Position numbers and translations under genes: made by a program. A stretch of 64,000 bases of DNA from Thiobacillus sp. (GTDB lineage: Bacteria; Pseudomonadota; Gammaproteobacteria; Burkholderiales; Thiobacillaceae), in contig JAUXRY010000040.1 in NCBI GenBank assembly GCA_030679915.1, forward strand, positions 1-64,000. The letters run 5' to 3'. Below the pieces are notes generated by a model, which worked only from the letters and a program-made list of their open reading frames with translations, ran no database searches and was not told where the DNA came from. Below, one piece after another: positions 4,709 through 21,391 of this stretch; the first letter of the stretch is position 1; each line of letters opens with the position of its first letter.

Positions 4709-6834
<2,126 letters not shown>

Positions 6835-6842
6835 GGGGCGCG

Positions 6843-6848
6843 ATTATA
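6843..6848 (-). promoter_or_regulatory. Possible -10 element of queA-tgt
   Basis: A perfect TATAAT on the minus strand ends 8 nt before the queA ATG. A start site 6-7 nt downstream of it would leave a leader of only one or two nucleotides. No good -35 box is found at 16-18 bp, so the call is tentative. Confidence 0.35.
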
Positions 6849-6857
6849 GCGTTCACC

Positions 6858-6887
6858 TTGCAGGGAGGCGCCTGATTCGGTGATAAT
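6858..6887 (+). promoter_or_regulatory. Probable sigma-70 promoter of tRNA-Leu
   Basis: TTGCAG at 6858-6863 and GATAAT at 6882-6887 are separated by 18 bp and lie about 40 bp upstream of the mature tRNA. The bases just after the -10 box are GC only (GCGCGCC), the kind of discriminator found at stringently controlled stable-RNA promoters. Start-site mapping is not available. Confidence 0.55.
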
Positions 6888-6928
6888 GCGCGCCTCTGTC
6901 GCTGGGCGCGTTCGCGTTCGGCACCCTT

Positions 6929-7015
6929 GCCGGGATGGCGGAATCGGTAGACGCAGCGGATTCAAAATCCGCCGCTGGTAACAGTGTGGGGGTTCGAGTC
7001 CCCCTCCCGGCACCA
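6929..7015 (+). tRNA. tRNA-Leu (anticodon CAA)
   Basis: An 87-nt cloverleaf can be folded by eye. The acceptor arms GCCGGGA and TCCCGGC pair, the anticodon loop TTCAAAA reads CAA and sits on a GCGGA/TCCGC stem, a long variable arm typical of class II tRNAs is present, and the T-arm is GGGGG-TTCGAGT-CCCCC. The 3' CCA is encoded. The anticodon decodes UUG. A terminator follows within about 10 bp. Confidence 0.97.
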
Positions 7016-7023
7016 AATTCCGC

Positions 7024-7062
7024 AAAAGGCCGGCTCCATTCGGGAGCCGGCCTTTTTGTTTT
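7024..7062 (+). terminator. Rho-independent terminator of tRNA-Leu
   Basis: A perfect 10-bp stem (GGCCGGCTCC with GGAGCCGGCC, extended by flanking A/T pairs) closes a short loop and is followed by TTTTTGTTTT. It directly follows the tRNA. Confidence 0.9.
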
Positions 7063-7076
7063 CCAGATGTAGGATT

Positions 7077-7147
7077 GGCGCTAAATTCTAGTGCCATCGT
7101 TGTTAAACGACCGAAGTGCAAGGATGGGTGGGGTGGCATTTAGCGCC
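7077..7147. repeat. 71-nt nested inverted repeat downstream of tRNA-Leu
   Basis: The outer arms GGCGCTAAAT (7077-7086) and ATTTAGCGCC (7138-7147) are perfect complements. Inside, GCCA at 7093-7096 can pair with TGGC at 7134-7137 after a one-sided bulge, and TCGTT-GTTA-AACGA (7098-7111) forms an inner hairpin. It is not followed by a T-run, so it is unlikely to be a terminator. It could be a small mobile-type repeat or a structured RNA. Confidence 0.6.
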
Positions 7148-7323
7148 TATTCGGCCAAATCAGCTGACCCAGCTAGCTAAAGAATTTGATCTTCTTGTTA
7201 CTGAGGATTTCGGCTTTGACAGAATAGTCGTGAACTTTTCACAAATTTTGGGCGAGCGCGTGCCCCGGCTGGAAGTGACGCTTCTCACGTACCTCAGCCG
7301 CTAGTTCAGCTAACGGAGTTGGA

Positions 7324-7458
7324 ATGCGTTTACTTGCGCTTACGAAATTTCTTGAGGAGCTCGGCGAGCTTCAGAACCTCAGTGATGAATTTGATCACTG
7401 TGTTCAGATGCTCGAGGATCATCCAGAAGTCGTCGTGGTTCACATAAACTCCAATTAA
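7324..7458 (+). CDS. Possible small protein, 44 aa, unknown
   Basis: This short reading frame begins MRLLALTKFLEELGEL and is acidic (many Glu/Asp). The ATG is preceded by GGAGTTGG, a weak Shine-Dalgarno, and the stop lies 11 bp before a strong stem-loop with A- and T-rich flanks. This gene-then-terminator layout is the main argument for it. A 78-aa frame on the opposite strand (7330-7566) covers the same bases but reads straight through the hairpin, which makes it less likely. No family is recognised. Confidence 0.3.
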   Translation: MRLLALTKFLEELGELQNLSDEFDHCVQMLEDHPEVVVVHINSN

Positions 7459-7463
7459 CGGAC

Positions 7464-7497
7464 GAAAAAAAGCCGCTCTTCTGAGCGGCTTACTTTT
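7464..7497 (+). terminator. Stem-loop terminator
   Basis: AAGCCGCTC (7470-7478) and GAGCGGCTT (7483-7491) form a perfect 9-bp stem with a 4-nt loop. An A-run precedes it and TACTTTTG follows, so it could work in either direction. It ends whatever is transcribed from the left, such as the 44-codon frame. Confidence 0.7.
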
Positions 7498-7980
7498 GCT
7501 GGGCGCAACTTCCCCAACAGTTAGAGTTTTACCAGTTTCGTTCGGCTTTGTGTTCCCCCTCGCCAATCAAATGAAGTAGAGGCTTCCAGCGGGCTATCAG
7601 GTCACTTATACAGTGGTCAGACTCCGTGGGGGATGTCGTAGTCCTTCCGGGGCTGTGACGCACAAAGATGAGGGAACCAATCGCTATACATAGAACAGTA
7701 GGAGGAAGACAAGGCTTCTGGCCTCAATGACTGTCTGTTGAGGCTGAGAAACGGTTGACGAGTGGTTCCGGACAATCCATTTTGGTTGCCTGAATACTTG
7801 GCCTCGCATTATCAATACGCAAACCCGCGCGCATTGCACTAATTCAGTGCGCCACAGTCCGACCGGCGACCTTGAACCGTGTGGTGCCGCGAACTTAACG
7901 CAAGCTTCATCGCACTGACATCTGTATCTCCAGCGAGATTTCCTATAGTTCAAGCTTGATGTGCGCAATGCCCGGGCGGG
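7498..7980. other. Upstream region of the glycogen operon, no gene seen
   Basis: No convincing coding sequence is present on either strand. Two small dyads may be regulator sites: GCCTCAA (7721-7727) with TTGAGGC (7738-7744), and GCACT-AATTC-AGTGC (7837-7851). They lie about 240 and 130 bp upstream of the sigma-54 promoter, distances usual for enhancer-binding proteins, but assigning them is inference. Confidence 0.4.
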
Positions 7981-7996
7981 TGGCACAGGCGTTGCT
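7981..7996 (+). promoter_or_regulatory. Sigma-54 (-24/-12) promoter of the glycogen operon
   Basis: The bases TGGCAC-AGGCG-TTGCT match the RpoN consensus TGGCAC-N5-TTGCW exactly, with ten bases between the GG and GC dinucleotides as required. The predicted start near 8007-8008 gives a leader of about 38 nt before pgi. It is correctly oriented, sits in non-coding DNA and is the last element before an eight-gene operon. Transcription from it would need an AAA+ enhancer-binding protein, which is not encoded in this window. Confidence 0.8.
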
Positions 7997-8045
7997 TAAT
8001 ACCTGTTAATGACCATTCCAGCGGCATCAGGACCAAGGAGGAATG

Positions 8046-9728
8046 ATGGCTTTAGCTGTGCAGCCTTATACAAACGAGATGGACGATCACGATCCATTGC
8101 ATCGGCCGGTGTGTCGATTGCTGCAGGCGCATCAGGCCGAAATGGCGTCGGTGCACATGCGCGACCTGTTTGTCGCCGAGCCTGAGCGGTTCGAGCGTTT
8201 TTCGTTGCAAGTGGGTGAGATTCTGCTGGATTACTCCAAGAACCGCATCACTGACGAAACCATGCGTTTGTTGATGCAACTGGCTGAAGAAGCCGAGGTG
8301 CCGGACTGGCGCGAGCGCATGTTCAACGGCGACAAGATCAACCACACTGAAAACCGCGCTGTGCTGCATGTGGCCTTGCGTAACCGCAGCAATAATCCGG
8401 TGGTGGTCGATGGTGAGGATGTGATGCCAAAGGTGAATGCCGTCATTGAGCGCATGGGTGCGTTTGCCGAGCGGGTTCGCAGCGGACAATGGCGTGGTTA
8501 TACCGATGAGCGCATCACGGATGTGGTGAATATCGGGATTGGCGGTTCGGATCTGGGGCCGCAAATGGTGGTGCAGGCCTTGAGGCCTTATCGTCATCCG
8601 CGCCTCAAGCTGCATTTCATTTCCAACGTCGACGGTGCGCATGTGAAGGAGACACTGGAGTCGCTGAACCCCGAGACCACGCTGTTCATCGTGTCGTCCA
8701 AGACCTTTACCACCCAGGAAACCATGACCAATGCACACTATGCGCGGGACTGGTTCATGGCGCAGTCGCAGGCGGTCAAGCATGTGGCCAAGCATTTCGT
8801 GGCGGTATCTACCAACCGCGATGCGGTGACGCAATTTGGCATCGATCCGGACAACATGTTTGAGTTCTGGGACTGGGTCGGCGGCCGTTATTCGCTGTGG
8901 TCGGCCATCGGGTTGTCGATCGTGCTGGCGGTGGGGGCGGAGCGCTTTAGCGAACTGCTGGAGGGCGCACACGAAATGGACGAGCACTTTCGGCATGCCC
9001 CGCTGGCGCAGAACATGCCGGTGATCCTTGCCATGCTGGGGGTGTGGTACAACAATTTCTTTGGCGCTGAGTCGCAGGCCATCCTGCCGTATGATCATTA
9101 TTTACGTAACCTGCCAGCCTATCTTGAGCAGGCGGACATGGAAAGCAATGGCAAATCGGTGGACCGTGAAGGCCATGTGGTGGATTATGCGACGGGCGCT
9201 ATTGTCTGGGGCGCGACCGGTATCAATGGACAACATGCGTTTTATCAAATGCTGCATCAAGGCACCAAGTTGATACCGGCTGATTTTATTGTGTCGATTG
9301 AGCCACCCACCGAACTGGAAGGGCACCACGATATTTTGATGGCAAATTTTCTGGCACAGACCGAAGCCTTGATGCGTGGCCGCACCCGCGAGGAGACTCA
9401 ACTTGAATCGGGCGCAGTCCAGGCTGGCCAATTTATTCAGCACAAGGTTTTTGACGGCAATCACCCGAGTAATGCCATCCTGCTGCAAAAGCTCACGCCG
9501 CATGCGCTGGGGATGCTGGTCGCCCTGTATGAACACAAAATATTTGTGCAGGGCGTGATCTGGAATCTCAATTCGTACGACCAGTGGGGAGTGGAACTGG
9601 GCAAGCAACTGGCCAGCCGGATTTTGCCTGAACTGCATGCCGATGTGCAGGTGGGTAGCCACGATGCGTCGACCAATGCGCTGATCAATCATTACCGCCG
9701 CATGAGTCATCCGCGCGCGGGCCTGTAG
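8046..9728 (+). CDS. pgi: Glucose-6-phosphate isomerase
   Basis: Pgi interconverts fructose-6-P and glucose-6-P. The 560-aa protein has the family signatures [26 protein letters not shown] and the block [20 protein letters not shown], plus a C-terminal [27 protein letters not shown] ends at 8041; the ATG at 8043 would be only one base away, so the adjacent in-frame ATG at 8046 is preferred. It is the first gene behind the sigma-54 promoter and 8 bp ahead of glk, linking central metabolism to glycogen synthesis. Confidence 0.97.
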
Positions 9729-9736
9729 ACCGCTGT

Positions 9737-10708
9737 ATGGAGTTGATAGCGGGCGATATAGGCGGGACAAAAAGCTGGCTGGCCTGGGTTGCTTTGACAG
9801 CTGAAGGGAAAGTGAAATTGCGCTTTGAAAAAGTCTATGTCAGTGCTGACTTTGTGTCAGCCGATGCTTTGTTAAAGCAGTACATCACGGATGCCCAGGT
9901 TGAACTCGAGCCTGATGCGTTGTGGCTGGCATTGCCTGGTGCCCTGAACGAACAGCGCACGACCCTGACCAACCTTGAGTGGACGCTTGACGCTGCTGAA
10001 CTGCAGCGGTCGACAGGACTGTCAACTGTCCGTTTCATCAATGACTTTCAGGCCGCAGCAGCCGGCGTGGCGACGCTCACCATACAAGACATGATTGTGC
10101 TTAATCCACAAGCTGCCGAGTTGGGCGGCGTGCGTGCGATTACGGGTGCAGGAACCGGACTGGGGTTGGCATTCATGATGGCCGATGCCACTGGACGTTA
10201 TCAAAGCTACCCTACAGAGGGCGGGCATATCGATTTTGCGCCGGGCAATGCACAGCAGCAGCGTTTGTTGGAATACCTGGGTGCAAGGTATGCCCATGTG
10301 TCGTGGGAACGTGCCGTGTCGGGTTCGGCGATGAATGATTTGTATCGTTTTTGCTGTATTGAACAGGGTCAGGCATTACCCGATGTCGCGGTCGAGGGCG
10401 CAGCGCTGGTGGCATTGGCCGAAGCAGGAAACAAAACGGCAGAAGCAACGCTTGATCTGTTCATCGATTTGTACGGTGCGTGGGTGGGCAATGTGGCGTT
10501 GCTGTATCAACCGCGTGGCGGATTGTTTATCGCGGGCGGCGTGGCCGGGCATTTACAGGCGCGCATGCAGTCGCCGCGTTTTATGGCTGCGGCAACCGAT
10601 AAGGGCAGGATGCGCAGTGTGGTCGAACGCACACCGATATTTTTGATTACCTGCAACCGAATGGGCGTGCAGGGTGTCATTGCCAGTGCACGTACAAGCC
10701 AAACGTAA
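9737..10708 (+). CDS. glk: Glucokinase
   Basis: Glk phosphorylates free glucose with ATP to glucose-6-P. The 323-aa protein begins with the phosphate-1 motif GDIGGTK (residues 6-12) and has INDFQAAAAG, the adenosine-side GAGTGLGLAF and the TEGGHIDFAP block of the bacterial Glk family (not the ROK family). It follows pgi by 8 bp. In this operon it would recycle glucose released when malto-oligosaccharides are trimmed. Confidence 0.94.
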   Translation: MELIAGDIGGTKSWLAWVALTAEGKVKLRFEKVYVSADFVSADALLKQYITDAQVELEPDALWLALPGALNEQRTTLTNLEWTLDAAELQRSTGLSTVRFINDFQAAAAGVATLTIQDMIVLNPQAAELGGVRAITGAGTGLGLAFMMADATGRYQSYPTEGGHIDFAPGNAQQQRLLEYLGARYAHVSWERAVSGSAMNDLYRFCCIEQGQALPDVAVEGAALVALAEAGNKTAEATLDLFIDLYGAWVGNVALLYQPRGGLFIAGGVAGHLQARMQSPRFMAAATDKGRMRSVVERTPIFLITCNRMGVQGVIASARTSQT

Positions 10709-10756: not shown

Positions 10757-12076
10757 ATGACGATTTCCAAGGATGAGCAGGCACGACTGTATCGTTATTA
10801 CACTGAACCAAAATCTGCGACCGAATTGACCCGCAAAACGCTGGCACTGGTGCTGGCAGGAGGCGAAGGATCACGCTTGAAGGATTTGACCTTATGGCGC
10901 GCCAAGCCGGCGGTACCGATTGGAGGCAAATATCGCATCATCGATTTTCCGCTGTCCAATTGTGTCAACTCGGGCATCCGTCGTATCGGTGTGCTCACCC
11001 AATACAAATCGCATTCGTTGATACGTCACCTGCAGCGTGCGTGGGGATTCATGCGCGCCGAGATTGGTGAGTTTGTGGAAATTCTGCCAGCACAGCAGCG
11101 CACCAACAAAAAAGAGTGGTATCAGGGTACGGCCGATGCGCTGTTCCAGAACATCGATATCATGCAACGCCATCATCCCGAATACGTGCTGGTGCTGGGT
11201 GGTGATCATGTCTACACCATGGATTACTCGGAGATGCTGTTGCACCACGTTGAAACCGGTGCCGATTTCACGGTAGGCAGCATTGAAGTACCGGAAGAAG
11301 AAGCCCGTTCTTTCGGGGTGATGACAGTAGACGCTGACATGCGCATTACCCAATTTACCGAAAAGCCGGATAAACCGGATTGCATCCCGGGCAAGCCGGG
11401 CATTGCGCTGGTTTCAACAGGGATCTATGTTTTTTCAAAGGACTTCCTCTACCAGACCCTGATCGAGGATGCAGGGAAAACCGGGTCGAGCCACGACTTC
11501 GGCAAGGACATCATTCCTTCCAAGATCGGCCATTCGCGCGCGATAGCCTTTCCTTTCCGCAACCGGGATGGGCAGCCCTCCTACTGGCGCGATGTTGGGA
11601 CGCTGGATTCCTACTGGAAAACCAATATGGAACTGTGTTCGGTTGAGCCCGAGCTCAACCTGTACAACCGCAACTGGCCGATCTGGACTTATCAGCCGCA
11701 ATACCCGCCCGCCAAATTCATTTTTGACGATGAAGGCCGGCGCGGCGAGGCAATCGATTCGTTGATCGCGGGTGGATGCATCCTGTCGGGCGCGCGGGTC
11801 AAACGTTCGGTTCTGTTTTTCGCTACCACGGTGGAAAGCTACAGCCACGTCAAGGACAGTGTCATCCTTCCCAAGGTCAGCATCGGCAGAAACTGTCGCA
11901 TCAACCGCACGATTATCGACAAGGGGACGGTTATTCCGGACGGCACAGTGATCGGTGAAAACAGGGAGGACGACGCCAAACGTTTTCATGTCACCCCAGA
12001 AGGCATTGTGCTGGTGACCCCAGCCATGCTCGGCCAAAATCTTTACGCGAGGCCACAGAATGATTACAACGGCTAA
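10757..12076 (+). CDS. glgC: Glucose-1-phosphate adenylyltransferase (ADP-glucose pyrophosphorylase)
   Basis: GlgC makes ADP-glucose from glucose-1-P and ATP, the committed and allosterically controlled step of bacterial glycogen synthesis. The 439 residues include the nucleotide loop LAGGEGSRLKDLT near 33-45, KPAVPIGGKYRIIDFPLSNC, the HVYTMDY metal/substrate motif, and a C-terminal beta-helix region (SVLFFATTVE...). AGGAG stands 5 bp before the ATG. Its 3' end overlaps the GH57 gene by 17 bp. Confidence 0.97.
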   Translation: MTISKDEQARLYRYYTEPKSATELTRKTLALVLAGGEGSRLKDLTLWRAKPAVPIGGKYRIIDFPLSNCVNSGIRRIGVLTQYKSHSLIRHLQRAWGFMRAEIGEFVEILPAQQRTNKKEWYQGTADALFQNIDIMQRHHPEYVLVLGGDHVYTMDYSEMLLHHVETGADFTVGSIEVPEEEARSFGVMTVDADMRITQFTEKPDKPDCIPGKPGIALVSTGIYVFSKDFLYQTLIEDAGKTGSSHDFGKDIIPSKIGHSRAIAFPFRNRDGQPSYWRDVGTLDSYWKTNMELCSVEPELNLYNRNWPIWTYQPQYPPAKFIFDDEGRRGEAIDSLIAGGCILSGARVKRSVLFFATTVESYSHVKDSVILPKVSIGRNCRINRTIIDKGTVIPDGTVIGENREDDAKRFHVTPEGIVLVTPAMLGQNLYARPQNDYNG

Positions 12077-13793
12077 ACCGCTCAACGTGGTGCTGTGCTG
12101 GCACATGCATCAGCCGTATTACCGCGAAGGACTCAAGGGCGCGTATCACCTGCCCTGGGTCTATTTGCACGGCATCAAGGATTACAGTGACATGGCCGCG
12201 CACCTGGAACGCTATCCGGACATGCATGCGGTGGTGAATTTTGCGCCGGTGTTGCTCGAGCAGCTGGATGATTATGCAAAACAGCTCGATGTGCTGTTGA
12301 AGCATGGCAAGCCGACCCAGGATCACATGCTGAACCTGCTTTCCGGGATCGAACGCATTCCCTCGGATATCGCCAGTCGCCAGCGCATCGTGCAGGATTG
12401 TCAGCGCTGTAACGCACCCCGCATGATTCATGTTCATCCGCCATTCCACCGGCTGGTGCGCATGGTTGAGTCGGATCAGATCGAAGCGGAAGATCCCCCT
12501 GCCTTGCAGACGCATTTAGGGTATTTGTCCGAACAGTATTTTCTGGATCTGCTGACCTGGTATCACCTGGCCTGGATAGGGCATTCACTGAAGAGTCTGC
12601 CGCTGGTCAAACGCTTGATGGCACAGGGTAAAGAGTATTCCGCGGCCGACCGGCACGAGTTGCTGCATCTGATTCAGCATAGTCTGGTCGGATTGATTCC
12701 ACGCTACCGTGCGCTGGCTGAACGTGGGCAGATCGAGCTGTCGATGACGCCTTACGGCCATCCCATCGTGCCGCTGCTGAACGATTTTGAAAATCTGCGT
12801 GATGCGATGCCTGACGTGCCGGTTCCCGAGGCTCAAACCTATCCGGGGGGTGCCGAGCGTTCACGCTGGCATCTTCAGCACGGCGTTGAAGTCTTCGAAC
12901 ATTATTTCGGCAAGAAGCCGGTCGGCGTCTGGTTGTCAGAAGGCGGCGTGAGTGAGGATGCGCTGGCCCAACTGGATGAAATGGAATTTGCCTGGACGGC
13001 TACTGGAGAGGGTGTGTGGCGCAACAGTTGCCGCAAATCGGGCAGCGGAGATGACGCGGTCGAAAACAAACCCGCGCTGTTTTCTCCCGCACTGGTCGAT
13101 GGTTTCAAGACGCGGGTGTTTTTCCGGGACGACGGACTGTCTGACCTGATTGGTTTCAAATACAGCGACTGGCATTCCGCTGATGCCGTGGGCGATTTTG
13201 TTCAGCACCTGGAAAACATTGCACGCCTGTTCAGCAAGGATGCAACGCAGCATGTTGTTTCGGTCATTCTCGATGGCGAAAATGCCTGGGAGTATTACCC
13301 TGACAATGGACACTATTTTCTGGATGCCTTGTATGCAGCGCTGTCGAGCCATCCGACCATCAAGGTCAGCACCTTTGCCGAACAAACCGTGCAGGCACCC
13401 ACCATTGCCATGAAACGGCTGGCGGCCGGCAGCTGGGTGTATGGCAGCTTTTCAACCTGGATCGGGTCGGAAGACAAAAACGAGGGCTGGGATTATTTGG
13501 TTGCCGCAAAAGAGGCCTATGACAGCGTGGTTAAATCCGGAAAGTTGACTTCGGAACACTTGATGCAGGCGACTCGTCAACTTGCCGTATGTGAGGGGTC
13601 AGACTGGTTCTGGTGGTTTGGCGACTACAACCCATCTGGCAGCGTCAGTGATTTTGAACAGTTGTTTCGAACCCAGTTACGCGAGTTGTATCGCATGCTG
13701 GGCGTGGCGCCGCCCGCGCTTCTCGATGTGCCACTGTCGAGCGGCGGTAACTGGGCTGAGAACGCAGGCACCATGCGCAGGAATACTGGATGA
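12060..13793 (+). CDS. Glycoside hydrolase family 57 alpha-glucan enzyme
   Basis: This 577-aa protein is a GH57 enzyme acting on alpha-1,4-glucans (amylase or transferase activity cannot be told apart here). GH57 motifs seen are WHMHQPYYR near residue 15, VWLSEGGVSE near 289 with the likely catalytic Glu, and ILDGENAWEYY near 402 with the likely catalytic Asp. It begins inside the end of glgC and overlaps malQ by 4 bp, so it is embedded in the glycogen operon. It probably trims or remodels the polymer inside the cell, as no signal peptide is present. Confidence 0.9.
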   Translation: MITTAKPLNVVLCWHMHQPYYREGLKGAYHLPWVYLHGIKDYSDMAAHLERYPDMHAVVNFAPVLLEQLDDYAKQLDVLLKHGKPTQDHMLNLLSGIERIPSDIASRQRIVQDCQRCNAPRMIHVHPPFHRLVRMVESDQIEAEDPPALQTHLGYLSEQYFLDLLTWYHLAWIGHSLKSLPLVKRLMAQGKEYSAADRHELLHLIQHSLVGLIPRYRALAERGQIELSMTPYGHPIVPLLNDFENLRDAMPDVPVPEAQTYPGGAERSRWHLQHGVEVFEHYFGKKPVGVWLSEGGVSEDALAQLDEMEFAWTATGEGVWRNSCRKSGSGDDAVENKPALFSPALVDGFKTRVFFRDDGLSDLIGFKYSDWHSADAVGDFVQHLENIARLFSKDATQHVVSVILDGENAWEYYPDNGHYFLDALYAALSSHPTIKVSTFAEQTVQAPTIAMKRLAAGSWVYGSFSTWIGSEDKNEGWDYLVAAKEAYDSVVKSGKLTSEHLMQATRQLAVCEGSDWFWWFGDYNPSGSVSDFEQLFRTQLRELYRMLGVAPPALLDVPLSSGGNWAENAGTMRRNTG

Positions 13794-15145
13794 ATTTCGA
13801 CACGCATCGTGCGGGTCTGTTACTGCATCCAACCTCATTGCCATCCGGAACGCTGGCCGATGCCGAGCGCTGGCTGGATTTCCTGCAGGCATCAGGGATG
13901 CAGATCTGGCAGATGCTGCCGCTGGGCCTGCCACTTGGCGGGCTGTCACCTTACCAATGCGCATCAGCATTTGCCGTCAATCCCGCCTTGTTTCCACAGG
14001 GACAAGCCACCCGGCCGCGACCGGATATGCGTCGTTTTGCAAGCTGGCATAACTCCCAGCGCCATTGGCTCGACGATTACGCCCGTTTCATCATCATCAA
14101 GCAGGAACAGGGGGGGGCGGAGTGGACGGATTGGCCCATTCCGCTTCGCGATCGCGAAGCGCACGCCCTGGCCGAATTCGATGCCGTTCATGCGGTTGCA
14201 CTCAAGGAAGTGATGGCCGTGCAGTATCGCGCGACGGTGTATTGGCAGGGCTTGCATGCCGAGGCGACGACGCGAGGGATCCAGTTGTTTGGTGACATGC
14301 CGATATTTGTTGCGCATGACAGTGCCGACGTATGGGCGCGACGTGATTTGTTCTTGCTGGACGAGAGCGGACACCCCACCGTTGTGGCGGGTGTGCCACC
14401 CGATTACTTTTCCGAAACGGGTCAACGTTGGGGCAACCCTCACTACAATTGGGCGGCCATGCAACAGGATGGTTTTGCCTGGTGGCGTGCGCGCTTGCGT
14501 GCGCACTTCGAATGGTTTGACCTGGTGCGCATTGACCACTTTCGCGGTTTGGCGGCAGCCTGGACGATCCCGGCCCAAGAGCCCACGGCGATCCATGGCG
14601 AATGGGTCACAACCCCCGGCGCGGCATTGTTGCAAGCGATTGCCGACGAAATGGGTGCGTTGCCATTGGTGGCGGAGGACCTGGGCGTCATTACGCCTGA
14701 TGTCACAGCATTACGCCACCAGTTTGAATTGCCTGGCATGGCGGTGCTGCAATTTGCCTTTGACGACCACGCCGACAATCCACACAAACCCGAGAACGTG
14801 CACCCTGATACCGTGTATTACGTTGGCACGCATGACAACGACACCGCACTGGGATGGTGGCGCACGCTGCCTGACCATGCGCAGCATCAAGTGATGCAGC
14901 GATTGGGCGGGGTGGATGCCGATGCGGTGCCGGATGCGATGTTGGACACCGTGCTGCACAGCCCCGCCGCACTGGCGGTGTTGACGATGCAGGACGTGCT
15001 TCATCTGGGTTCGGAGGCGCGCATGAATACGCCTGGCACAGACAACGGAAACTGGCGCTGGCGATTTGAATGGGAGGCACTGCCGTCCGACTTGGCGCCC
15101 CGTTTGCGTGATCAATTACAGAAAGCCCATCGATGCGAGAGATAA
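13790..15145 (+). CDS. malQ: 4-alpha-glucanotransferase (amylomaltase), short form
   Basis: MalQ moves glucan segments between malto-oligosaccharides (GH77). The N-terminus RAGLLLHPTSLPSG and the stretches LFGDMPIFVAHDSADVWA, DLVRIDHFRGLAAAW (nucleophile Asp) and VAEDLGVITPDV (acid/base Glu) are all present. At 451 aa it is shorter than the usual 500-690 aa but keeps the catalytic residues, so it looks functional. It overlaps the GH57 gene by 4 bp and glgB by 13 bp. In glycogen turnover it would recycle short chains left by phosphorylase. Confidence 0.93.
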   Translation: MNFDTHRAGLLLHPTSLPSGTLADAERWLDFLQASGMQIWQMLPLGLPLGGLSPYQCASAFAVNPALFPQGQATRPRPDMRRFASWHNSQRHWLDDYARFIIIKQEQGGAEWTDWPIPLRDREAHALAEFDAVHAVALKEVMAVQYRATVYWQGLHAEATTRGIQLFGDMPIFVAHDSADVWARRDLFLLDESGHPTVVAGVPPDYFSETGQRWGNPHYNWAAMQQDGFAWWRARLRAHFEWFDLVRIDHFRGLAAAWTIPAQEPTAIHGEWVTTPGAALLQAIADEMGALPLVAEDLGVITPDVTALRHQFELPGMAVLQFAFDDHADNPHKPENVHPDTVYYVGTHDNDTALGWWRTLPDHAQHQVMQRLGGVDADAVPDAMLDTVLHSPAALAVLTMQDVLHLGSEARMNTPGTDNGNWRWRFEWEALPSDLAPRLRDQLQKAHRCER

Positions 15146-17364
15146 GCTCACCCATGAATGCGCCTTTGAAAAAGCCTGTCAGCAGCAATCTGCCCGTCAT
15201 CAGCGCGCCGATTCAACGCGTGCAAAGTGGCACGCACCATGACCCCTTCGAAGTGCTGGGGCCGCATGCGCAGCCCGATGGCAGCACCCTGATCCGGGCC
15301 TTCCTGCCCGCGGCCGAAGCCGTCGAGGTGGCAGGTGGGCGGATGACCCGTTTAGCGGAAACCGACTGTTTTGAGCGGCGGCTGCCGCCGGGAAGCGTTG
15401 TTGAAGCCCATCCCACTTTGCGTTGGCAGGACAAGGGCGCGGGCGACTGGCACCTCACTCAATGCCCCTACAGCTTTGCCCCGCAACTGGGCGAAATGGA
15501 TTTGCATTTACTGGGTGAAGGCCGTCACTTCGAAGCCTGGAAGGTGCTGGGTGCACGGCTTAAAACCATCGATGGGATTGAAGGCTGTTTGTTCGCCGTG
15601 TGGGCACCCGCCGTGCAGCGGGTCAGTGTGATCGGCGATTTCAACGGCTGGGATGGCCGCCGTCATCCGATGCGCTGTCGCGGCACATCGGGCATCTGGG
15701 AACTGTTCATTCCCGGTCTCGATGCGGGCCATGCCTACAAATACGAAATTCTCGGCAGCCACGGCCAGCTGGTGAAAAAGACCGACCCTTATGCGCGGCA
15801 GATGTTCTTGCGGCCCGAGACCACCAGTCGTATTGCCGATAACGCTTGCTATGACTGGGGGGATGGCGACTGGATCGCGGCGCGTGCCCACTTTGACTGG
15901 CAGCACCAACCCGTCAGTATTTACGAGATGCATCCGGGCTCCTGGCGCAAGCATGCGAATGGGCGGTTTTATGACTGGGCCGATCTCACAGCAGAATTGA
16001 TTCCTTATGTAACAGATCTGGGCTACACCCACATTCAATTGATGCCGGTGGCCGAGCATCCACTCGATGCCTCATGGGGCTATCAGGTGTCGGGTTATTA
16101 CGCACCGTCTGCGCGCTTCGGAACGCCCGATGGTTTTCGCGCGTTTGTCGATGCCTGTCATCAGGCCGGTATCGGTGTCCTGCTTGACTGGGTGCCGGGG
16201 CATTTCCCCAAGGATGATTTCGCGCTGGCGCGCTTCACTGGCGAGCCGGTATACGAACACGCCGACCCTCGCCGTGGCGAGCATCAGGACTGGGGCACGC
16301 TGGTTTTCGATTTCGGCCGTAACGAGGTGCGCAATTTTCTGGTCGCCAACGCTCTGTTCTGGCTGGACGAATTTCACATCGACGGGCTGCGTGTCGATGC
16401 AGTCGCATCGATGTTGTATCTGGATTATTCGCGCAAGCATGGCGAATGGCTGCCGAACCAGTACGGCGGGCGCGAGAACATCGAGGCCATCCATTTCCTC
16501 CGCGAAATGAATACCGAAGTGCATGGTCGTTTCCCGGGTGTGCTGACCATCGCCGAGGAGTCGACTGCATGGCCGGCAGTGTCACGCCCAGTTGAATTGG
16601 GTGGACTGGGCTTCTCGATGAAATGGAACATGGGCTGGATGAACGACAGCCTGGCCTACATCGAAAAGGAGCCGATTTTCCGAAAGTTTCAGCACAATCA
16701 ACTGACCTTCAGCCAGATGTATGCATGGACTGAAAACTTCGTCTTGCCGCTGTCGCATGACGAAGTCGTGCACATGAAAAAAAGCATGCTCGACAAGATG
16801 CCGGGTGACGCCTGGCAGCGTTTTGCCAATCTGCGGCTGTTCTATGCCTGGCAGTATGCACATCCCGGAAAAAAGCTGCTGTTCATGGGCGGCGAATTTG
16901 GCCAGTGGAACGAATGGAGCGAAGTCGATCAGCTCGACTGGGCGCTGCTAGAGTTCCCCGCCCACGACAGTATTCGTACGTTATTGCGTGACCTAAACAA
17001 GTTGTATCGCACTGATCCTGCATTGCATGCATACGACTTTGAACCACGCGGATTTCGCTGGATTAATTGTCACGATGCTGACCAGTCGGTGCTCAGTTTC
17101 ATTCGTCAGGGCGGTGATGACACCGAACCCATGGTGATGTTGTTTAATTTCACCCCTGTGCCGCGCCGCGCTTACCGAATTGGTGTGCCATTGGGGGCCG
17201 CCTGGTGCGAAGTGCTGAATACTGACTCGACGTTTTACGGTGGCAGCAATCTGGGCAACGGCAGGCCGCTGCATCCACAGAACCTGTTATGGATGGGATT
17301 CGATCACTCGGTTGAGGTGACGATCCCACCTCTGGGCGCCATTTTCCTCAAGCCCTGTCAATAA
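15133..17364 (+). CDS. glgB: 1,4-alpha-glucan branching enzyme
   Basis: GlgB creates the alpha-1,6 branch points of glycogen (GH13). The 743-aa protein has two N-terminal CBM48-type regions (HHDPFEVLGPH near 35; AVWAPAVQRVSVIGDFNGW near 155-173), then the catalytic barrel with GLRVDAVASMLYLDY (nucleophile Asp), LTIAEESTAWP (acid/base Glu) and PLSHDEVVH. The start overlaps the end of malQ. An alternative in-frame ATG at 15154 is possible; neither has a clear Shine-Dalgarno. Confidence 0.97.
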   Translation: MREISSPMNAPLKKPVSSNLPVISAPIQRVQSGTHHDPFEVLGPHAQPDGSTLIRAFLPAAEAVEVAGGRMTRLAETDCFERRLPPGSVVEAHPTLRWQDKGAGDWHLTQCPYSFAPQLGEMDLHLLGEGRHFEAWKVLGARLKTIDGIEGCLFAVWAPAVQRVSVIGDFNGWDGRRHPMRCRGTSGIWELFIPGLDAGHAYKYEILGSHGQLVKKTDPYARQMFLRPETTSRIADNACYDWGDGDWIAARAHFDWQHQPVSIYEMHPGSWRKHANGRFYDWADLTAELIPYVTDLGYTHIQLMPVAEHPLDASWGYQVSGYYAPSARFGTPDGFRAFVDACHQAGIGVLLDWVPGHFPKDDFALARFTGEPVYEHADPRRGEHQDWGTLVFDFGRNEVRNFLVANALFWLDEFHIDGLRVDAVASMLYLDYSRKHGEWLPNQYGGRENIEAIHFLREMNTEVHGRFPGVLTIAEESTAWPAVSRPVELGGLGFSMKWNMGWMNDSLAYIEKEPIFRKFQHNQLTFSQMYAWTENFVLPLSHDEVVHMKKSMLDKMPGDAWQRFANLRLFYAWQYAHPGKKLLFMGGEFGQWNEWSEVDQLDWALLEFPAHDSIRTLLRDLNKLYRTDPALHAYDFEPRGFRWINCHDADQSVLSFIRQGGDDTEPMVMLFNFTPVPRRAYRIGVPLGAAWCEVLNTDSTFYGGSNLGNGRPLHPQNLLWMGFDHSVEVTIPPLGAIFLKPCQ

Positions 17365-17397: not shown

Positions 17398-17445
17398 ATG
17401 AATTGCGGAGCAAAAGAATAAATGAATAGCGGAGCAAAAAAAATC
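17398..17445 (+). repeat. 24-bp tandem duplication of the glgA start creating a 7-codon leader ORF
   Basis: The bases 17398-17421 and 17422-17445 are two adjacent copies of the same sequence, identical over most positions. The first copy reads MNCGAKE and then TAA, and the TAA abuts the glgA ATG; the second copy is the true glgA start, MNSGAKKI. The GCGGAG in copy one also lies 11-12 nt before the glgA ATG and might serve as its ribosome site. Confidence 0.85.
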
Positions 17446-18930
17446 CTGTTTGTTGCCAGCGAAGCCTATCCGCTGGTTAAAACCGGCGGGCTGGGGGATG
17501 TGCTTTACAGCCTGCCACACGCCTTGTATGCACGGGGTGCAGACGTTCGTCTGCTGCTGCCGGGTTATCGTGCATTGTTACGCCAGTTGGATCAGGTTCA
17601 CATACTGGGCTGGCTCGATGTGCGCGGTGCCGAGGGCATTGTGAGTGTGCGCATTCTGGAAACCCGGCATCCTGAATATGCTTTCCCCCTGTGGGTGGTG
17701 GATTGCCCGAGTCTGTTCGATCGTCCTGGTAATCCTTATGTGGGTGCCAGCGGCCACGACTGGCCGGATAATGCTGAGCGCTTTGCCGTGTTTGCGCGGG
17801 TGGCAGCACTTTTGGCACTGGATGCCCTGGATAGGGGATGGCAGCCAGAAGTGGTTCACTCGCACGACTGGCAGGCCGGTCTGGTGGCCGCATTTCTGGC
17901 CGATCAGCCAGCACGGCCGAAAACCGTGTTCACGATCCATAATCTGGCTTACGGCGGCTATTTTTCACACGGCGATTTTGTGCGGCTTCAGTTGCCGAGC
18001 CACTGGTGGTCACCCGAGAGCCTGGAATTCCACGGCGGGTTTTCCATGCTGAAGGCGGGTATTGTCTATGCCGATGCCGTGACCACGGTGAGCCCTACCT
18101 ACGCTGCCGAAATCTGCACCCCGGAATTCGGCTATGGGCTCGACGGTCTCCTGCTTTCCTTAGAGCACAAACTGCATGGCATTCTCAATGGAATCGATAC
18201 CAAAATCTGGAATCCCTCCACGGATGAACACTTGCCTGCGCGATATTCATCGAGTCGTATTCTTCCGGGGAAGCGGCGTAACAAACAATCCCTGATTGAG
18301 CGTTTTTTGCCGCAGGCAGACGATGCCGCCATGCAGGCGCCATTGTTGGGCCAGGTGGGACGGCTGGTCGAACAGAAGGGCATCGACTGGGTGCTCGCCG
18401 TGATCCCCATTTTGCTGGCTGAAACCGATGCCCGTTTTGTGCTGCTGGGAAGCGGCCAAACCATCTACGAGCATAAGCTCATGCGCCTGGCCAAGCTGCA
18501 TCCGGAGCGGGTATTCGTTGAGATTGGGTATGACGAGTCGCTGGCACATCAGATCGAAGCCGGCGCGGACATGTTCATGATGCCGTCGCGCTTCGAACCC
18601 TGTGGCTTGAATCAGATGTACAGCCTGAATTACGGTACCCCCCCTATCGTGTTCAAGACAGGCGGGTTGGCCGACACCGTGGTCGATGCAGACAGGACCA
18701 CATTGAAAGATGCCACCGCCAATGGTTTCGTGTTCGACACGCCGGATGTGGCGTCATTCCTGAACACGATTCGCCGCGCCCTTGCGCTGTATCAGAAGCC
18801 TGCCCAGTGGCGGAAGTTGCAGCAAACCGGGATGCGCCAGTCATTCGACTGGGCGGATAGCGCCGGCCATTACCTGGCTTTGTATTCCACTTCAATTAGC
18901 GAGGATAGCCATGCCATCCATACCCATTAA
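17422..18930 (+). CDS. glgA: Glycogen synthase (ADP-glucose)
   Basis: GlgA transfers glucose from ADP-glucose to the growing glycogen chain (GT5). The 502-aa protein has the N-terminal [13 protein letters not shown] motif (ADP-glucose binding, residues 20-32), [23 protein letters not shown] and the C-terminal [19 protein letters not shown] followed by [10 protein letters not shown] 57-bp gap after glgB contains the duplicated start described separately. Its 3' end overlaps glgP by 20 bp. Confidence 0.97.
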
Positions 18931-21391
18931 TTCTCAGTGCCCTGTTTCATTTTCAATGGACTCTCTGCCGAATAGCGCCGATGAAATCGGCGAGGATATA
19001 GAGCGTTATCGGTTCTACCACATGGGCCGCTTGCAGGCGTGCCCACCGGTCTATACCTATCAGGCACTGGCCTGGACCCTGCGTGATCGCCTCATGTCGG
19101 ACTGGATGAATTCCTATGCGGCACGCGATCAGCCGGGCAAGCGACGTGCGTACTATTTGTCACTCGAGTTCCTGATCGGCCGTGCGCTGTCCAACCATGT
19201 ATTGAACCTCGGACTGGACGAACCTGTGCACGACGCGTTGCAGCGATTCGGCCATGATCTGGAAAGCCTTGCCGAAGAAGAGCTCGATGCCGGGCTGGGC
19301 AATGGCGGTCTGGGTCGGCTGGCAGCGTGTTTCATGGACAGTTGTGCCACGCTCAATTTGCCGGTGATGGGCTATGGCCTGCATTACGAGTATGGGATGT
19401 TTCGCCAGCGCATCGAAAATGGTTACCAAATGGAAGACACGGATCACTGGCTGCGTGACGGCAACCCGTGGGAAGTCGAACGCCCCGAATTCACCTGCAG
19501 GGTGCCTTTCGGCGGCCACACCGAGCACTTCCGCGACAAAGAAGGAATCGGGCGTGCACGCTGGTCCGGCACCAATGATGTGCTGGCGATTCCGTTCGAT
19601 ATGCCGATATCGGGTTATCGCAACCACGCAGTGAATACGTTGCGACTATGGAAAGCTGCAGCGACAGACGAATTCAACCTGGATGAATTCAACGCAGGTA
19701 GCTACACCGAGGCGGTGCAGGAAAAGAATCACGCCGAACACATTTCGATGGTGTTGTATCCCAACGACAGCAGTGAAAGCGGCAAAGTGCTCCGACTACG
19801 CCAGCAGTATTTTTTGGCCTCGGCCAGTTTGCAGGATGCGATGCGGCAATGGCGCTCAGCCGGCAATACCGATCTGCTTCTGTTTGCCGAACAAAATGTA
19901 TTCCAGATGAATGACACCCACCCCACCATCGCGGTGGCTGAGCTGATGCGACTCCTGCTCGATGAGGAAAGGCTGGTTTGGGACCAGGCCTGGGCGATTA
20001 CTACACGCTGCATGGCTTATACCAATCACACGCTTTTGCCCGAAGCATTGGAACGCTGGCCGGTTGCACTTTTCGAGCGTCTGTTGCCACGTCCCCTGGA
20101 AATCATTTACGAGATCAACGCACGATTCCTGCGTGAGGTGTCGATGAAATGGCCCGGCGATATGGGTCGCCAGCGTCGCATGTCGATCATCGAAGAGGAT
20201 GGGGAGCGTCAGGTGCGCATGGCGTGGCTGGCTATCGTCGGCAGCTTCTCAGTCAATGGCGTAGCCGCATTGCATTCCCGCTTGCTGAAGGAAGGGCTGT
20301 TCCGCGATTTTGTCGATTTGTGGCCGGGAAAATTCAACAACAAGACCAACGGCGTTACCCCCCGTCGCTGGGTGGCGCATGCCAATCCTGGCATGAGTGC
20401 TCTGATTACCAGCAAAATAGGGGATGCCTGGATTGCTGATCTGAGCCAACTGGAGAATCTCAAGCCGCTGGCCGAACTGGAACATACCGCATTCCATGCA
20501 CAGTGGAACGCGTCTAAACGGGATAACAAAGTCAGACTTGCTGAGCTGGTCAGAGACAGGTGCAGCGTTGAATTCAATCCGGACGCCTTGTTTGATGTTC
20601 AGGTTAAGCGCATCCACGAATACAAGCGCCAACTGCTGAATGTGCTGCACGTAATCCATCTCTACAATCGCATCAAGAATGGACAATTGGAAGGCTGGGC
20701 AGACCGTTGTGTGCTGATTGGCGGCAAGGCTGCACCGGGTTATGTAATTGCCAAGCGCATCATCAAGCTGATTAATAGCGTAGCCGATGTCATCAATAAT
20801 GACCCAGCGGTCAATGGTCGCTTGAAGGTGGCTTTTTTGCCCAACTACCGTGTGACGAGCATGGAAATCATCGCACCCGCAACGGACTTGTCGGAGCAGA
20901 TATCGACTGCCGGAAAAGAAGCCTCAGGCACCGGAAATATGAAATTCATGATGAATGGCGCTATCACGATAGGGACCTATGATGGTGCCAACATTGAAAT
21001 TCTCGATGCAGTGGGGGCGGATAACTTCTACCTGTTTGGACTTCGGGCTGAAGAGGTCGAGGCATTGCGTCCGAACTATCAGCCGCTGTCTTACGTGGAA
21101 AACGACCCGTCGTTGCGCGAAGTGATCGAGCTCCTGTCTTCTGGGCACTTTAATTCGTGTGAGCCGGGGATCTTCGACATGATTCTTGATGCGCTCATGA
21201 GCCCGCATGACCCGTGGATGGTTCTGGCCGATTTTGGCAGCTACGTCGAGGCGCAGGAAAAAGTAGCGCAGGCCTGGCTAGACAAAGAAAATTGGACGCG
21301 CATGAGCATACTCAACACCGCATCGAGCGGATTTTTTTCCACCGACCGCACCATGCGGGAATACAACGCCGAAATCTGGAAGTTGACCTAG
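18911..21391 (+). CDS. glgP: Glycogen phosphorylase
   Basis: GlgP releases glucose-1-P from chain ends (GT35, pyridoxal-phosphate enzyme). The ATG at 18911 is chosen because GAGG lies 6 bp before it and the resulting 826 aa is the family length; the frame is open further upstream inside glgA. Motifs seen include [26 protein letters not shown] and the PLP site [14 protein letters not shown] around residue 676. It closes the operon, so synthesis and breakdown are co-transcribed. No clear terminator is visible after the stop. Confidence 0.96.

Follow-up and report, generated by a model that had tools for sequence, protein, structure and literature searches.

A conserved sigma-54 promoter with an NtrC-type enhancer box lies upstream of the glycogen operon in Thiobacillus

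That bacteria accumulate glycogen when nitrogen runs short is textbook physiology. In E. coli, control of glgBX and glgCAP involves CsrA, cAMP-CRP, ppGpp and, indirectly via glgS, RpoS, and the glycogen genes respond when growth stops while carbon is in excess. To our knowledge, the transcriptional link from nitrogen sensing to glycogen is indirect in model bacteria, and an NtrC/sigma-54 promoter has no place in the standard account of E. coli glycogen control. In the Thiobacillus DNA analyzed here, an exact sigma-54 consensus precedes a complete set of glycogen genes, which raises the question of whether nitrogen status controls carbon storage directly in this organism and, if so, through which activator. 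From comparison of sequences within and beyond the genus, we consider it highly likely that an NtrC-activated, sigma-54-dependent promoter drives the whole glycogen operon under nitrogen limitation.

Eight genes, pgi-glk-glgC-GH57-malQ-glgB-glgA-glgP, form the operon behind the promoter (Table 1). The genes glgC, glgA, glgB and glgP are adjacent and co-directional, and successive reading frames of the operon overlap or leave gaps no longer than 57 bp, with an approximate start for glgP. Terminator-like sites show no excess between 7900 and 21700 (11, against 12.9 in shuffled sequence). Another pgi, with 56% identity to the one in the operon, is found at G000 C1:35404-37020, so the operon has an isomerase of its own. 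Among 36 same-genus genomes, this one included and many of them incomplete, 18 hold both types of pgi, 10 have the operon type alone and 8 the second type alone.

Table 1. Positions of the promoter elements and operon genes, with the basis of each assignment
Feature	Position	Strand	Basis
NtrC-type enhancer box TGCACTAATTCAGTGCG, core GCAC-N7-GTGC = GCACTAATTCAGTGC (7836-7850)	7835-7851	.	10/14 vs TGCACCAnnnTGGTGCA
Pho-box-like direct repeats CTGACAT-N4-ATCTCCA	7915-7932	+	6/7 and 3/7 vs CTGTCAT-N4-CTGTCAC
Putative sigma-70 -10 element TATAGT (P1)	7944-7949	+	5/6 to TATAAT
Sigma-54 -24/-12 promoter (P2), TGGCAC-N5-TTGCT = TGGCACAGGCGTTGCT	7981-7996	+	exact consensus
Inferred transcription start of P2	8006-8008 (~8007)	+	~12 nt past -12 GC
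Ribosome-binding site AAGGAGGA before pgi	8035-8042	+	sequence; ATG at 8043 or, better spaced, 8046
pgi, glucose-6-phosphate isomerase, operon copy	8043-9728	+	NF001211, 868 bits, over cut-off
glk, glucokinase	9737-10708	+	PF02685 over cut-off; NCBIfam glucokinase models below theirs
glgC, ADP-glucose pyrophosphorylase	10757-12076	+	TIGR02091 over cut-off
Glycoside hydrolase family 57 protein	12060-13793	+	PF03065 over cut-off
malQ, 4-alpha-glucanotransferase	13790-15145	+	TIGR00217 over cut-off
glgB, branching enzyme	15133-17364	+	NF003811 over cut-off
glgA, glycogen synthase	17422-18930	+	TIGR02095 over cut-off
glgP, glycogen phosphorylase (approximate start)	18950-21391	+	TIGR02093 over cut-off

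The -24/-12 element has GG at -24 and GC at -12 at the exact spacing that defines a sigma-54 promoter. As an earlier note on this DNA had claimed, the match is exact, and it is the only such match in the window (the whole 64-kb stretch under analysis). Matches with up to two mismatches are at chance level (30, with 27.45 expected), so the exact match alone is notable. Across the genome (2.5 Mb, about 80% complete), TGGCACN5TTGCW occurs 14 times and its reversal once. By our own arithmetic, a 2.5-Mb genome should contain about one exact TTGCT-type match and two to three TTGCW-type matches by chance, and some of the 14, inspected by eye, fall within genes. These figures speak for a chance match without function and, because of them, the match taken alone, ahead of comparative data, is suggestive only.

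The element lies close upstream of pgi as proposed, 46 bp rather than 50 bp before the first ATG. Sigma-54 promoters start transcription about 12 nt after the -12 GC, which would leave a 5' UTR of about 36 nt. The stretch between the last terminator-like hairpin (7470-7491) and pgi is indeed non-coding and measures about 550 bp, not quite the nearly 600 bp first given; the term leader is a misnomer for it, the predicted 5' UTR being so short. Searching 6800-9800 with Rfam returned only tRNA-Leu at the gathering threshold and no RNA element in the leader, and a simple scan of 6900-8200 found no plain sigma-70 promoter. Just past the tRNA-Leu (6929-7015) and its terminator is an inverted repeat, GGCGCTAAAT/ATTTAGCGCC, at 7077-7147.

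We searched 60 genomes with the operon Pgi and obtained 27 same-genus loci with usable upstream regions (L002-L028, own included). L029, whose contig begins inside pgi, was left out, another contig of the same genome (L196) carrying the combined pattern described below; L030 and L031, from other families, lack the element and stand outside the 27. In the alignment of orthologous upstream regions that had been proposed as a check, with minus-strand loci turned round, the -24/-12 element is kept with at most one mismatch in 21 of the 27, where it begins about 50-95 bp upstream of the extrapolated pgi start codon. It is absent from L016, L017, L019, L021 (degenerate), L024 and L026 (spacing two bases short). 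On a Pgi tree of 29 rows, including two outgroups, the presence of the promoter requires five changes, which we read as presence in the ancestor of the genus followed by about four losses, several forks being weakly supported. All six genomes without the element have RpoN, and NtrC over its cut-off, so the site was lost while the regulators were kept, and the element is dispensable. In the genus as a whole, RpoN is present in 54 of 56 genomes and NtrC is over cut-off in 49.

The promoter region also varies in structure. In L026 (G006) the dyad and the Pho-like block described below are intact, but two bases are missing from the -24/-12 spacing (TGGCACAGGCTGCT), which looks like a recent inactivation of the sigma-54 promoter. 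In L014, L026 and L027, a further -24/-12-like element, degenerate in sequence (TGGCAGGCACGRTGC), precedes the main element by about 25 bp, and in L025 about 38 bp are duplicated in tandem at the same place. The region upstream of pgi seems to duplicate repeatedly.

Block alignment of the genus upstream regions revealed further conserved blocks, among them the dyad at 7836-7850. The earlier note had offered two dyads as candidate activator sites. One of these, placed there at 7837-7851, turns out to be a conserved NtrC-type box; the other, GCCTCAA/TTGAGGC at 7721-7744, exists but has no conserved counterpart in the nearest relative, L003, which shares no sequence with the window upstream of about 7750. 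The NtrC box consensus TGCACCAnnnTGGTGCA is that given in PMC8743547, and a close form appears in Table 1 of PMC4987338. The box in the window matches this consensus at 10 of 14 positions, boxes in relatives at up to 13, and the two boxes of the organism's own glnA promoter at 11 each. The exact core GCAC-N7-GTGC is found in 18 of the 21 promoter carriers (absent from L009, L020 and L025) versus one of the six non-carriers, the exception being L026 with its broken -24/-12 spacing. Box and promoter are lost jointly.

The distance between the two elements is nearly fixed. From the end of the box to the -24 element it is 126-131 bp, within the 100-150 bp expected of an NtrC-dependent promoter, in 18 of the 21 carriers, which were selected on the promoter only. 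A set of 34 aligned carriers was formed from these 21 and 13 more found by the dyad, spacing and promoter together; with the 13 from the spacing-limited pattern counted in, 28 of the 34 fall in the same range, and the other six measure 97, 106, 117, 117, 118 and 167 bp. Mean pairwise identity in the 34 is 0.94 at -24, 1.00 at -12 and 0.97-0.99 in the dyad half-sites, values that are partly by construction, the carriers having been selected on those letters (13 of them with a pattern that contains the dyad core), and 0.38-0.41 in the stretches between elements and upstream. Neither the Pho-like block, in all 34, nor the dyad with its distance, in the first 21 carriers, entered into the selection. 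A chance match is contradicted by the conservation of the element, its nearly constant distance to an independent dyad and the joint loss of the two, and we regard it as extremely improbable. Given that one proposed dyad is a conserved NtrC-type box at a nearly fixed distance, we name NtrC as the candidate activator with good confidence.

Strong NtrC promoters usually bear a second, neighboring NtrC box; here the second-best site shows only a slight excess (mean 9.0, against 8.3 in shuffles). An IHF-type site (AATCAA-type elements) between enhancer and promoter reaches 6 of 9 in this genome, not above shuffles (6.4), and 8-9 of 9 in nine of the 34 carriers.

We used the combined arrangement, dyad-N(104-134)-TGGCAYN5TTGCT, as a search pattern with its reversal as control. 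Within the genus it matched 31 of 56 genomes, once each, and the control none; all 31 matches precede pgi or a pgi remnant. In the 30 loci loaded first, a Pgi motif follows in 26, and the other four are known pgi loci (L192 and L195), a pgi that runs off its contig (L196) and a remnant (L190); downstream of the thirty-first (G079, L240) is an open reading frame that by eye is Pgi. In L190 (G067) pgi has shrunk to its final 16 codons and, by eye, its start, directly before glk, with the dyad and sigma-54 promoter retained; here the promoter has outlived its first gene.

Across 399 genomes of the order, the pattern matched 29 and the control none; all four genus members drawn in this sample matched, and none of the eight from other genera of the family. 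We loaded 26 of 29 places outside the genus and took as the target the longest open reading frame starting within 450 bp (the second longest for L217). Targets include glnA (5), amtB (3), NarK-like or MFS transporters (3), a NirB-like protein, a uroporphyrinogen methyltransferase, a molybdopterin oxidoreductase, NMT1-type and Peripla_BP_5 binding proteins and an ANTAR response regulator. By our count 17 of the 26 are nitrogen-linked: the eight glnA and amtB loci firmly, and nine others as fitting nitrate, nitrite, urea or NasT-like functions, where two NarK calls and the NirB call are under NCBIfam cut-offs and L228, L232, L237 and L239 have general Pfam matches only. The remaining nine comprise three circularly permuted ATP-grasp genes, a Peripla_BP_6 and a Gcw_chp gene, and four others with no clear link. 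With order-wide matches falling mostly before glnA, amtB and nitrate- or nitrite-type genes, the arrangement of dyad, spacing and promoter appears to be largely an NtrC signature, which in this genus marks glycogen.

The genome encodes the required regulators: RpoN (PF04552 at C11, 221 bits), NtrC (TIGR01818, 690 bits, cut-off 558.6) and NtrB (NR(II) model, 338 bits, over cut-off), the NtrC gene adjoining glnA and the NtrB gene. It also encodes four other full enhancer-binding proteins, namely PrsR, whose gene adjoins that of PrsK, and three that we name PilR-like, AtoC-like and secretion-linked, their best NCBIfam matches being below cut-off; this inventory may lack a further activator, since only about 80% of the genome is present. 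The sigma-54 promoter might therefore be real and answer to one of these instead, PrsR of the exosortase/EPS system for example, which would tie glycogen to exopolysaccharide or surface growth. PrsK and PrsR exceed their NCBIfam cut-offs, and, by eye, pilin-like, exosortase-linked and EPS-like genes are found near other -24/-12 sites. We nevertheless judge control by another activator improbable: the dyad fits the NtrC box and marks mostly nitrogen genes across the order, whereas none of the other 13 exact sigma-54 sites in the genome has GCAC-N7-GTGC within 350 bp upstream, their best NtrC-box scores being 8-10 of 14. The organism's own glnA promoter has the dyad core, two NtrC boxes and a -24/-12 element, TGGCACGGTTGCTGCT. 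The helix GWGRNTLTRK is, by eye, found only in NtrC among the five proteins, and the C-terminal region of NtrC aligns to the NtrC domain 1ntc, which has alanines at three positions of this helix.

Further exact sigma-54 sites of this genome (L126, L127, L128, L130, L136 and L137) are followed, by eye, by a gene that diverges from an AtoS/AtoC-like pair, one YceI-like and one pilin-like gene, a PEP-CTERM-like gene with a PrsT-like neighbor, an operon for an ABC transporter and a gene with a PAS domain.

In the favored mechanism, activation by NtrC, nitrogen limitation would lead NtrB to phosphorylate NtrC, which would bind the dyad at 7836-7850, loop over about 130 bp and use ATP to open sigma-54 RNA polymerase at 7981-7996. 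Transcription from about 8007 would then read through all eight genes, and fixed carbon that is unusable for protein would be stored as glycogen. The mechanism predicts occupancy of the box by NtrC, a start at that site and induction by nitrogen starvation. Comparative evidence, in the form of the conserved promoter and its NtrC-type box, thus supports the earlier proposal that RpoN and an enhancer-binding protein switch the entire operon in response to nitrogen.

RpoN is probably not the only factor in control, because a Pho-box-like sigma-70 promoter appears between the enhancer and the -24 element. The Pho box is described as two 7-nt repeats separated by 4 nt, with CTGTCAT in E. coli (PMC4415409). 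In the carriers, the conserved block takes the form (T/C)TGTCAT-N4-nnnTCAC-N10-TATRGT, with 28-33 nt from its end to the -24 element in 30 of the 34; the gap from the box to the -10 element is 11 nt in the window and 10 nt in most relatives. Our Pho-box model takes CTGTCAC as the second repeat and 10 nt as the spacing to -10. Scored with this model, which was chosen after seeing the block, 28 of the 34 are unusual against 200 shuffles each that preserve single-base composition only (p <=0.025), and L009, L023, L027, L184, L186 and L190 are not. Pairwise identity in the 34 is 0.83 in the first repeat, 0.61 in the second, 0.62 in the spacer between them and 0.82 in the -10 element. Of 30 pstS loci in the genus 25 were readable, 19 with CTGAAAT-N4-CTGTAAT-N10-TA(G/A)TAT, five with close variants and one (L257) with neither; pstS of this genome scores 373 bits and has, by eye, pst-like genes beside it. 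We think it rather probable that the block at 7915-7949 is a Pho-box and -10 promoter, which would lie about 30 bp upstream of -24 and probably add an input from phosphate limitation.

Such a PhoB-sigma-70 promoter could even be the main driver, with the sigma-54 element as an addition or in decay. The block is recognizable, unselected, in 28 of 34 carriers with the geometry of pstS in the genus, and it persists in L021, L024 and L026, which have no sigma-54 element (scores 16, 14 and 13; L017 scores 13 and L016 12). Yet the -24/-12 element, where present, is the most conserved part, in some measure through selection; the Pho repeats of the window are imperfect; L019 has no clear block (score 10); and the model was picked post hoc, with a strict double CTGTMAY pattern finding no pho gene. 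We therefore consider the Pho promoter unlikely to be the main driver and retain NtrC and sigma-54 in that role. There is an even chance, in our estimate, that the PhoB-sigma-70 and NtrC-sigma-54 promoters, in tandem about 30 bp apart, make the complete glycogen operon, with a pgi and a glk of its own, an integrated module for nitrogen and phosphate starvation in which either shortage diverts Calvin-cycle hexose phosphate to storage, ancestral in the genus and repeatedly trimmed, some lineages having lost the nitrogen arm and kept the phosphate arm.

Compared with known systems, the sigma-54 promoter resembles the NtrC-dependent promoters of glnA and amtB-glnK in enteric bacteria and betaproteobacteria, the class in which the genus is placed, in its -24/-12 element, GCAC-N7-GTGC dyad and similar enhancer distance. 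It differs in having one clear box instead of two and in its target, a whole glycogen operon rather than nitrogen uptake or assimilation. The Pho-like block shares with Pho promoters such as pstS, those of the genus likewise, two 7-nt repeats 4 nt apart followed after about 10 nt by a -10 element, but has a poor second repeat, lies upstream of a sigma-54 promoter and has a glycogen target. A likeness to E. coli glgBX and glgCAP would lie in the response to growth arrest with carbon excess, noted for E. coli at the outset.

Several published observations touch on this link. A survey of NtrC and RpoN in E. coli (PMC8743547) contains, by term count, no main-text word starting with glycogen, glg or pgi. 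Transcripts of glgA1 and glgX1 in Sinorhizobium meliloti (PMC5596199) and of glgA in Pseudomonas stutzeri A1501 (PMC2820453) rise under nitrogen limitation or nitrogen fixation; the relevant passages of these reports concern expression only and describe no NtrC/sigma-54 glycogen promoter. In Pseudomonas putida, CbrB, a sigma-54 activator of the NtrC family, was located at glgA by in vivo binding, and glgA is described there as repressed, not shifted in vitro and, in the authors' judgment, not sigma-N dependent (PMC6296734). A Salmonella survey assigns a sigma-54 binding site to glgA (PMC3844500). Among the matches listed for glycogen with NtrC, RpoN/sigma54, PhoB or Thiobacillus, from a collection with few subscription journals, none is known to describe a glycogen operon behind an NtrC/sigma-54 promoter. 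The parts are familiar; what appears to be new is the target and their combination. If true, control of the whole operon by a conserved NtrC/RpoN promoter would wire nitrogen status directly to carbon storage, and the neighboring Pho-type promoter, if true, would show two starvation signals joined at one operon. For a genus whose lifestyle we take to be autotrophic and sulfur-oxidizing, this points to a way for an autotroph to put fixed carbon aside while it cannot grow, and offers a simple handle on carbon overflow.

The searches also touched genes outside glycogen metabolism. The circularly permuted ATP-grasp gene stands behind the NtrC/sigma-54 arrangement in three genomes from two families (L218, L229 and L242), which suggests that it has a nitrogen-regulated role. 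The strict double CTGTMAY pattern, present in 6 of 56 genomes, was of no help for or against PhoB, as none of its targets was read by eye as a pho gene. In five of those genomes (L210-L213 and L215), CTGTCAY-N4-CTGTCAT and a -10-like element precede what is by eye a LuxR/EpsA-like regulator gene, and a link from Pho to exopolysaccharide through this gene is possible.
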